Shown in pieces: positions 4,449 to 6,900 of a stretch of 46,344 nt of DNA (position 1 is the stretch's first letter; each line of letters starts with the position of its first letter). A program made the position numbers and the translations under genes. The stretch comes from Betaproteobacteria bacterium (GTDB lineage Bacteria > Pseudomonadota > Gammaproteobacteria > Burkholderiales > Ga0077523): positions 1 to 46,344 of the forward strand of contig WGLR01000022.1 of the NCBI GenBank assembly GCA_016125475.1, written 5' to 3'. The notes beneath the pieces were generated by a model that saw only the letters and a list, made by a program, of their open reading frames with translations, was not told where the DNA came from and ran no database searches.

Positions 4449-4519
4449 GGCGGGGGTGGCGGCTGGCGTGTTCACTCGGACTCGTGAGCGGGTGCCCGAT
4501 GCATCCGACGGGAAGGCCG

Positions 4520-5962
4520 ATGCGACCGATACGGATCGATGCGCGGCAGGCACTCGCCGCGGTCGTCACCACAGTGATCATTCAGATGCCCGCATTCGCG
4601 GGACTGGACGCACAGCCGGAGGGCAAGGGGTCGAGCATCTCCGGTTTCGATTCGGGCATGCGGGACAAGACGCTCGCCTCCTGGCTCAGGACGGCCCTGC
4701 TCGAGAACGGGCAGAAGAACGTCCGGGAGGCAGCGTTCCTGTTCAATTCGTGTTTCGGCGGCGGCATGCTCGACGACATCGATGCCGCACTCGGCGGGCA
4801 GGTGCCGTGGGTCGGCGGCGCCGCTTCGCGCCATAACCAGTATGCGATCGGACAGAATTCGCCCGCCGAGAACGTGGTGCTCAAGAGACCCGAAGTCTTC
4901 GTGGATGCGCAGCCGATGGGATTCTGGACGCGTGCGCTCGTGCCGCTCATGGAGGAGCGTGACGCGACCGTGTTCGGTGCGGTTTCCGGAGCGGCCACGG
5001 CGGACCGCGTGGCGAGTGGCGCAAAGCGCGAGGCGGACATCGACAAGGCATTGGCCGCGGCGAAGGTCGACGTCCCGTTCGGTCCCGCACAGGTGCTCCC
5101 CGAGGACGTGCAGTTCGTCGCGAAGAACGGCGGCGACGCGATGAAGATGGACTGCAAGGACTGCGGCAAGCGCTACGTCGTGATCTGGGCCGGCAACACG
5201 GACCGACTGCGCGCCTACGACGACGTCGCGGGCATGCTCGACGTGCTGCGCACGAACTGGCCCGGCGATCCCGCGAACGTCGTGTTCAAGATCTTCTACG
5301 GCGATGGTGTGCAGAAGGTGACCGGCAAACTGGCTCCGCCGAACGCGGAGAATCGTTTGCCCGCGGAGTGGGGCGCGGTGCCCGCGAAGCGCAGTCTGCT
5401 GCAGAAATATCTCGAACAGGAACTGCCCGCGATGATCGGCCCCGAGGACCAGTTCTTCCTCTACGTGACGGACCACGGCTCCTGGTACGTGAGGGACGAT
5501 CAGCCGAAACAGGTGGATCCGGGCGGCGCAGGTGCATTGCTCCCCATTTCGATCGACCCGGAAACCTATGCGGCGGCCTGGTTCGATCCCGGCAACCAGG
5601 CTACGCTCACCCTCGACTATCTCGGTCTTGCACAAGCGACGAGCGTCTACCTCAACGACCACCTGATCGGGACTCTGCCGCCCGACACGAACGCGTCGCC
5701 GACCCAGCCTGCGACCTGGACGGTCACGGTCGACGAATCCGACCTGCTGCTCGAGAACCTCCTGCGCATCGAGGCCGTCTCCGATCCCTTCACGGTGACC
5801 GCGACGGATTTCGAGATCGGCCAGATCGGTCGCGACCCGCCAGGTGTCGTCGACGAGCCGGCCGGCGCGACGCTAGTGATGGCGGCTGCGGCGATCGCGG
5901 CCGGTATCGCGCAGCGTCGACGGGTGCTTCCATCGTCGCGGACGGGCTCCCGGGGTGCCTGA
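4520..5962 (+). CDS. Secreted legumain-like (peptidase C13 fold) protein with apparent circular permutation and PEP-CTERM-like tail
   Basis: A 480-residue exported protein. Residues 1-27 form a signal peptide ending MPAFA before GLDA. A first block at residues 70-110 (FLFNSC with C78, FGGGML, then PWVGGAAS) resembles the catalytic-Cys strand of legumain (YIEACESGS followed by TTAS). A later block at 218-262 (YVVIWAGNTD, then YDDVAGML and FYGDG) resembles the legumain N-terminal strand (AVLVAGS, then YDD). It is followed by GPEDQFFLYVTDHGSW at 307-322 with H319, the catalytic-His strand. In legumains His precedes Cys; here Cys comes first, and no Cys follows H319. Residues 338-440 look like a beta-sandwich. 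The C-terminus (DEPAGATL, hydrophobic stretch, RRR) is PEP-CTERM-like with a 12-residue extra tail. Other possible starts are GTG 4484 and ATG 4499; the signal peptide and the FNR site favour 4520. Peptidase activity is inference. Confidence 0.65.
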   Translation: MRPIRIDARQALAAVVTTVIIQMPAFAGLDAQPEGKGSSISGFDSGMRDKTLASWLRTALLENGQKNVREAAFLFNSCFGGGMLDDIDAALGGQVPWVGGAASRHNQYAIGQNSPAENVVLKRPEVFVDAQPMGFWTRALVPLMEERDATVFGAVSGAATADRVASGAKREADIDKALAAAKVDVPFGPAQVLPEDVQFVAKNGGDAMKMDCKDCGKRYVVIWAGNTDRLRAYDDVAGMLDVLRTNWPGDPANVVFKIFYGDGVQKVTGKLAPPNAENRLPAEWGAVPAKRSLLQKYLEQELPAMIGPEDQFFLYVTDHGSWYVRDDQPKQVDPGGAGALLPISIDPETYAAAWFDPGNQATLTLDYLGLAQATSVYLNDHLIGTLPPDTNASPTQPATWTVTVDESDLLLENLLRIEAVSDPFTVTATDFEIGQIGRDPPGVVDEPAGATLVMAAAAIAAGIAQRRRVLPSSRTGSRGA

Positions 5963-6195
5963 AGGCCCTCGACGATCCGACGCAGTTCCGTCGCCCTCAC
6001 TGCATCCGCCCGAACGGACCATCACGGCGCTACCGTCGTCGCGCGGCAATCCGTGCACAATGTCCGCCCGACAGGGTGACGCGCGAAACTGCCGGCGTGC
6101 ACAGGCCGAATCGAGGGTGCCGGGACGGCTGCACACGTCCGGGCTGCTCCGCGCCGGCGCGCCCCTGCCAGCGAGGGCACCCGGGAGGACCATCG

Positions 6196-6900
6196 ATGGA
6201 GAAGAAGGATCTGCCGAAGCACGTCTGTGGCGTGTGCGGACGGGAATTTCCCCTGAAGTCGCTCGTGCGCGGCGAACTCGTGCGGAGCGAGATCGTCGCC
6301 GCGGCCCAGAAGAGGAACCCGGCGTGGTCCGTGTCGGACTACATCTGCCGGTCGTGCCTCACGAACGCACGCGCGGACTACGTGCGCGGCGTGCTGGAGG
6401 ACGAGAAGGGCGAGCTCACGTCGCTCGAGCAGGAGGTCGTCACGAGCCTGCGCGAGCACGACATCATTTCGCGCCACGTCGAGGACGAGTTCGAGCAGAA
6501 CTGGACGCCCGGCGAACGGCTGGCGGACCGCATCGCGACGTTCGGCGGCAGCTGGACCTTCCTGCTCCTGTTCGGCGGGTTCCTCGCGAGCTGGATCGTG
6601 CTGAACTCGCTGGTACTCTACTGGCGCCCGGTCGATCCGTACCCGTACATCCTGCTGAACCTCGTGCTCTCGTGCCTCGCGGCCATCCAGGCACCCGTCA
6701 TCATGATGAGTCAGAACCGGCAGGAGGCGAAGGACCGGCTGCGCTCGCAGCACGACTACCAGGTCAATCTCAAGGCCGAACTGGAGATCCGCCACCTGCA
6801 CGAGAAGATCGACCACCTGCTGTCGCACCAGTGGGAGCGACTCGTCCAGATCCAGGAGATCCAGCTCGAGGCGCTCGCGGAGCTCGGCAAGAAGAAGTGA
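6196..6900 (+). CDS. DUF1003 membrane protein with N-terminal double CxxC motif
   Basis: A 234-residue inner-membrane protein. Residues 1-60 carry C11-x2-C14 and C51-x2-C54, a possible zinc ribbon. Residues 100-110 hold the NWTPGERLAD motif that opens DUF1003. Two transmembrane helices follow at about 118-142 and 150-171, ending in the conserved IMMSQNRQ. A charged, probably coiled-coil tail runs from 175 to 234. DUF1003 is widespread but has no established function. The ATG at 6196 follows GGGAGG. A 116-bp gap separates it from the STAS-like gene in the same orientation. Confidence 0.8.
   Translation: MEKKDLPKHVCGVCGREFPLKSLVRGELVRSEIVAAAQKRNPAWSVSDYICRSCLTNARADYVRGVLEDEKGELTSLEQEVVTSLREHDIISRHVEDEFEQNWTPGERLADRIATFGGSWTFLLLFGGFLASWIVLNSLVLYWRPVDPYPYILLNLVLSCLAAIQAPVIMMSQNRQEAKDRLRSQHDYQVNLKAELEIRHLHEKIDHLLSHQWERLVQIQEIQLEALAELGKKK

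Follow-up and report, generated by a model that had tools for sequence, protein, structure and literature searches.

The P0001 gene and the order of its blocks

The stretch of DNA analysed here (the window; 46,344 nucleotides of contig WGLR01000022.1, assembly GCA_016125475.1, Betaproteobacteria bacterium) bears at positions 4520..5962 of its plus strand a gene for a protein of 480 residues, P0001. In all likelihood this protein is secreted and cysteine-peptidase-like, and its catalytic domain, as judged from sequence comparisons, has the clan CD (caspase/legumain) fold in a naturally circularly permuted form, with family C13 as its nearest relative by profile. A GTG start at 4484 is likewise open. 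The gene is overlapped by a minus-strand open reading frame (4472-5662, 396 residues), which is probably a by-product of high GC content, because the plus-strand frame is the one common to the relatives described below.

Along the translated protein, the recognisable blocks follow each other in the order FLFNSCFGGGM, YVVIWAGNTD, YDDVAGML, FYGDG and FLYVTDHGSW. The predicted nucleophile, C78 (4751..4753, within NSCFGGGMLDD), stands 141 residues ahead of Y219 of YVVIWAGNTD and 241 residues ahead of the predicted general base, H319 (5474..5476, within TDHGSW). The two remaining cysteines, 212 and 215, sit between the b1/His side and the Cys block, and there is none beyond H319; histidines are found at 105, 319 and 381. 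The sequence-only reading of this gene had claimed precisely such a spacing, with no later cysteine, and translation of 4520-5962 confirmed it. All features of P0001 lie on the plus strand. The permuted first half (residues 44-175; 4649..5044) comprises a helix, the Cys strand and the part that comes after Cys in normal C13 proteins, and the second half (residues 217-322; 5168..5485) comprises b1 (YVVIWAGNTD), the YDD helix, a strand, another helix and the His strand. Between them, a linker with approximate bounds (residues 176-216; 5045..5167) would connect the former C-terminal end to the former N-terminal end.

A small and divergent family

Standard searches hardly recognise P0001. The only Pfam match was one to C13, 15 residues long and located at the His (C13 positions 106-120, residues 307-321; E 0.078, below the cut-off), and neither NCBIfam nor a phmmer search of the PDB gave anything above cut-off. 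No usable relative of P0001 or its core was found in a first scan of genome contigs, or in plasmids, phages and viral contigs. Plain searches in 60, 369 and 398 genomes of its own order, class and phylum (its own genome included) yielded no usable relative either, the weak matches outside its own genome being L002, L003 and L006, at E 0.005-0.009. Viral scans with the family alignments A2, A4 and A8 found none, and the same was true of plasmid searches with the relatives L035 and L056 as queries.

A scan weighted towards the Cys block, in turn, revealed four relatives (L033-L036), all with the block order of P0001, in metagenome-assembled genomes (MAGs) titled Thermoplasmata archaeon, Phycisphaerae bacterium (two) and Deltaproteobacteria bacterium; by profile, the deltaproteobacterial genome was then found to contain another copy (L041). 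When the class of one Phycisphaerae MAG, G796, was searched by profile, 6 of 198 genomes matched, G796 among them, and five new sequences (L053-L057) were obtained; 19 of the 20 G796 profile matches covered only the profile tail (positions 397-480) and were excluded from the count. L056 and L057 entered by their His half alone, and their Cys half was recognised by reading; the latter matches Pfam C13 with E 0.0011 and 0.0022, respectively. In wider samples (1 of 188, 3 of 154 and 1 of 199 genomes matching), only the query genomes and two normal-order archaeal C13 proteins were detected. L061 and L062 proved to be normal-order C13 (L064, L065). The permuted family, which looks rare in the sampled genomes, comprises 11 sequences from 10 genomes, that of P0001 included (alignment A8).

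The other members are only 20-27% identical to P0001. The motif order proposed from the sequence of P0001, found in its translation, is kept in all 11 aligned proteins, together with Cys78 and Asp318-His319-Gly320. This conservation bears on the possibility that the fold is permuted and catalytically dead, P0001 being a secreted binding or structural pseudo-peptidase. Catalytic activity of P0001 is indeed only predicted, its C-terminal beta domain weakly resembles binding modules (by VIA), and the Arg-His pair at the likely S1 position, assigned by eye, varies: Arg is present in 6 of the 11 members and Arg-His in 5, P0001 itself having Arg231-Ala232. However, invariance of Cys and of Asp-His-Gly in proteins so divergent would hardly be expected of a dead enzyme, and we consider such a role unlikely.

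In a tree of 36 sequences (171 columns), nine permuted sequences were set apart with an ultrafast bootstrap of 97. L056 and L057 grouped with membrane C13 proteins with a support of only 44, which leaves room for a second, independent permutation event as a possibility. These two are divergent permuted proteins with QCYGGNMV first.

Further variation was noted among the relatives. L053-L055, of roughly 1000 residues, bear long Cys-rich and NGVPD/NGIPDEC-type repeats ahead of the catalytic domain. In L033, L034, L035, L036 and L041, the catalytic His is placed in a loop which by eye resembles an EF-hand, such as DDHGDTEFDFDEF; Pfam EF-hand_7 matched L033 with E 0.13 only, and P0001 has no such loop. 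The loop could put these relatives under calcium control. As to normal-order proteins, L064 (genome G1308, from the phylum of the Thermoplasmata MAG) is a C13 protein that by eye looks like a lipoprotein, a Cys following the hydrophobic N-terminus, and its first half is close to the permuted family (profile E 3.7e-8). L018 and L032, from genome G235 with its six C13 matches, are C13-like proteins of normal order and very large size, in which WIGT-type segments recur.

Comparison of both halves with normal-order enzymes

For comparison with normal-order enzymes, we used 20 C13 sequences, from sources including a Pfam scan that matched 18 of 185 genomes of the class; they were picked with a His-before-Cys pattern on both strands, and the non-matching L020, L024, L029 and L030 were left out. 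The family profile ran up to the His. In hhalign against single-copy C13, the two halves of the family matched separately and in swapped order: family positions 167-253 on C13 34-142 (His half, E 2.5e-7) and 21-90 on 158-215 (Cys half, E 2.1e-5). When the C13 profile was duplicated in tandem, the halves joined into one alignment of 198 columns, with a score of 78.0 vs 54 in the native comparison and E 3.2e-10, and rotation of the family against single-copy C13 gave 84.3 (E 3.9e-12). Normal-order families gained nothing from duplication of the target (146.4 to 146.3, and 151.4 to 151.5). The signal was retained when the target was limited to the 11 membrane-type C13 sequences that Pfam by itself had detected (E 5.9e-9 on the duplicate; 5.5e-7 without L056 and L057). 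Both halves also matched a C14 profile of five sequences in swapped order; the rotated family scored 58 with C14 vs 73-84 with the C13 sets, though the depths of these profiles differ (5 vs 9-20 sequences).

These scores lie far above those produced by chance. The maximum of 200 column shuffles was 20.7 for the C13 target and 22.1 for a 9-sequence subset, 300 shuffles of the family profile reached at most 20.4, and reversed C13 profiles scored 16.9 (full target) and 14.4 (subset).

Scanning the position of the cut showed a plateau where the cut was placed ahead of residues 87-219, a stretch which includes the linker, with scores of 72-75 vs 47 native for the membrane set and 79-85 vs 54 native for all 20 sequences. 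Past the plateau, the scores dropped gradually, from 66 to 55 (membrane) and from 82 to 68 (all 20) by residue 294, and the minimum, 38 and 44 at residue 318, adjoins the His. Such a profile is predicted by a junction within the plateau stretch, and the cut is best read from these scores as lying inside the His-Cys connection.

The joined alignment is of importance also for another explanation, in which the C-terminal half of one C13 protein was fused to the N-terminal half of another, leaving a remnant with no working single domain. Circular permutants can arise via duplication and partial loss, and an intermediate of this process could look alike; moreover, the linker is long and in the structural model partly poorly predicted. 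Nevertheless, the junction recurs in 11 proteins from lineages far apart, both halves contain invariant residues, and each half supplies what the other lacks. Origin as a mere fusion or remnant seems to us highly improbable, and circular permutation of one domain is the reading with which we proceed.

Solved structures were searched with hmmsearch in two orders, using the same 10 of the 11 sequences (L055 left out) and the same residues against 177,635 PDB sequences. In native order, Arabidopsis metacaspase-4 (E 0.031) was matched by two weak, swapped stretches, family 186-254 on chain 14-88 (His, 6.2 bits) and 13-69 on 107-155 (Cys, 8.4 bits). In rotated order, it was matched with E 1.1e-4 by a single stretch, 14-153 on 20-155, running across His and Cys. 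The only other sequence at E<=10 in the rotated search was GSU0716 (E 0.011), deposited as uncharacterised, which we take to be caspase-like. A TALE repeat protein at the top of the native search (E 0.0034; three repeats of 4-6 bits) and a further row at E 2.1 were read as chance matches. An unmatched native search (11 rows, beta domain included) placed yeast metacaspase-1 first through the His half (E 0.068); its swapped-order Cys stretch, at 0 bits, is meaningless by itself. Rotation also improved the Pfam C13 match of the P0001 core, from E 0.028 (15 residues) to 0.012 (His through Cys), and that of the best family member, from 4.4e-4 to 2.3e-6, with 3 of 10 members matching in either order. 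Both hhalign and the PDB search place the catalytic domain among the homologues of clan CD families.

Several observations weigh against this interpretation. The PF01650 cut-off of 22.8 bits was missed by P0001 whether taken whole (12.9) or as the core in native (14.4) or rotated (15.6) order; L056, with 19.1 bits, is below it as well. In hhalign, P0001 alone gave a clear match only for the His half, and the permutation signal was weak when the seven large C13-like proteins were the sole target. The AlphaFold2 (AF2) model of P0001 is of low confidence, with a mean predicted local distance difference test (pLDDT) value of 53. Foldseek found with it no match at E<=0.001, and VIA no legumain or natural caspase among the 50 matches listed; both comparisons follow chain order and started from a poor model.

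In that low-confidence model, the secondary structure follows the permuted caspase order (in the first half, helix 49-60, strand 70-77, helix 82-91 and strand 97-102), and pLDDT values are 82 for the Cys strand, 87 for the His strand and 76 for b1; the first part of the linker has low values. Foldseek ranks 2 and 3, not significant at E 0.058 and 0.14, were chains named cysteine protease and clostripain, and chains of caspase-3/-7 appeared at ranks 20, 23 and 31. If P0001 had an unrelated alpha/beta fold with short motifs alike by chance, such hits would be unexpected, as would the distance between the observed scores and the shuffle and reversal controls, or the appearance of metacaspase-4 and GSU0716 as sole matches of the rotated profile. 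We therefore give chance resemblance next to no credit.

The alignments and profiles show the swapped order, the homology of both halves to normal-order C13 and C14 proteins, and the conservation of C78 and H319. The circular permutation itself, suggested earlier from the motifs of P0001, is well supported at this level by the half matches, the tandem duplicate, the rotation and PDB searches with their matched native control, and the cut scan.

Export, relation to known peptidases and possible function

A hydrophobic stretch at residues 10-31 of P0001, seen in a Kyte-Doolittle plot, contains AFA-G, on which we base a predicted signal peptide of residues 1-27 (4520..4600); L033-L036 likewise begin with hydrophobic segments (by eye). 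Export of the protein is therefore plausible. The catalytic part is followed by the beta domain (residues 338-437; 5531..5830), perhaps carbohydrate-binding-module-like, and by the stretch VVDEPAGATLVMAAAAIAAGIAQRRR (5846..5923) with a short basic tail, which in sequence and hydrophobicity is PEP-CTERM-like. Sorting by a PEP-CTERM system, also proposed in the sequence-only reading, is plausible in that the genome encodes an exosortase (PF09721, E 1.1e-67, G000:C11) and the relative L034 ends in a VPEPA..RRR tail (by eye); on the other hand, no Pfam or NCBIfam model matched the P0001 tail (VVDEPAGATL..RRR) at E<=10. The tail of L035 matched IPTL-CTERM (E 0.0032) and midcut-by-XrtH (E 0.0013), both below cut-off. 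The exosortase and the sorting-like tails of L034 and L035 suggest that sorting to the envelope occurs in more than a single lineage.

The gene lies downstream of one for a HAD hydrolase and upstream of genes for a DUF1003 protein (6151-6897, E 2.9e-41) and a SpoIIAA-like protein. P0001 had no match in the 11 congeneric genomes searched, and its DUF1003 neighbour was found in none of them at E<=1e-20, so that the locus may be accessory. The same genome also encodes a normal-order membrane-type C13 protein, L004 (G000:C22:69502-69927; E 4.7e-22).

With C13 (legumain; PF01650), its best profile match, the permuted family shares the b1-YDD-type helix, the HG block, the C-x-[SG]-G block and the alanine/serine block past Cys. 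It differs in having the Cys half before the His half and in scoring below the Pfam cut-off, and P0001 lacks the His of the Arg-His pair. Arg44/His45 were ascribed a role in the S1 pocket of legumain (PMC4357240), and R231 (5210..5212) is perhaps the counterpart of the arginine. The Arg of L064 aligns with that of legumain-type ligases, and hhalign put P0001 two residues off it; since, moreover, the S1 equivalence was drawn by eye, Asx (asparagine or aspartate) specificity of the permuted family is only a guess. Metacaspases and orthocaspases (C14) resemble the rotated family across His and Cys, as the metacaspase-4 match indicates, and differ in block order. Because the curated C13 cut-off is missed and the residue order of the clan is reversed, we would not file P0001 under C13 and prefer to describe it as a clan CD homologue that is legumain-like and circularly permuted.

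In type III metacaspases, p20 keeps His ahead of Cys. These enzymes are themselves a natural clan CD rearrangement, with a p10-like domain at the N-terminus (PMC5756287), but there p10 moves whole and p20 harbours the dyad, whereas the cut in the P0001 family falls between His and Cys. P0001 does not have this layout, its Cys and His halves themselves being swapped. Natural circular permutation is also known in papain-like cysteine peptidases (the NlpC/P60 cluster, PPPDE1 and LupA; PMC10318531), which have the papain fold, while that of the P0001 family would be caspase-type. A 2025 review of cysteine peptidase clans counts eight families in clan CD, one of four clans whose dyad it gives as His-Cys (PMC12445089); in P0001 the order is Cys then His. 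In a comparative paper on clan CD structures, no word starting with 'permut' occurs (PMC4357240), and the top-ranked matches listed from open papers included no naturally permuted clan CD protein in which the Cys precedes the His. This agrees with the earlier remark that no described peptidase family with this arrangement was known to its author.

An engineered, circularly permuted caspase-2 (cpCasp2) provides a man-made parallel: it carries both subunits in a single chain, is constitutively active and dimerises as caspases do (PMC7760212). It differs from P0001 in that the small subunit was moved ahead of the large one, and His would still precede Cys. This protein is also relevant to the idea that the dyad of P0001 forms in trans, the swapped halves pairing between two chains of a domain-swapped dimer. 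Nothing direct speaks for it, apart from the long linker between the halves, and cpCasp2, though dimeric, is active with both subunits in one chain, so that pairing in trans is not needed. We see little chance that it occurs, and assume instead a permuted domain with the dyad within one chain.

The picture of this domain that we favour is as follows. The chain opens with the helix and the Cys strand and goes on into what is otherwise the closing part of the domain; then comes the linker, and then b1-a1-b2-a2-b3, with the His at the end. Cys and His would come together as they do in clan CD enzymes of normal order and, as in PmC11, would occupy the ends of adjacent strands. The product would be a putative active endopeptidase, perhaps with an Asx-type P1 preference in members keeping Arg-His, which might be exported and kept at the envelope by exosortase. 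PmC11 (C11) has to be cut at Lys147, which lies between His133 and Cys179, before it is fully active (PMC4850288). This self-cleavage opens the same connection in which the new termini of P0001 would lie, but in PmC11 the gene order is normal and the break comes from cleavage, not permutation. By analogy, P0001 may be a pre-opened enzyme that requires no activating cut there; with its termini placed within the His-Cys connection, the opening would be present from birth.

Tentatively, then, and with the balance of our judgement on the side of doubt, P0001 may represent a natural clan CD peptidase family of bacteria and archaea in which permutation inverts the order of Cys and His and replaces activation cleavage, giving exported enzymes born active at the cell surface. 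Catalytic residue order is one feature by which peptidases lacking a structure are grouped (PMC12445089), and a conserved Cys-His relative in clan CD would show that the His-Cys rule can fail. Such proteins would escape standard searches, as P0001 did in Pfam, NCBIfam and PDB phmmer. The family would be a natural counterpart of the engineered permuted caspases, and would allow one to test directly whether an open His-Cys connection suffices for activation.
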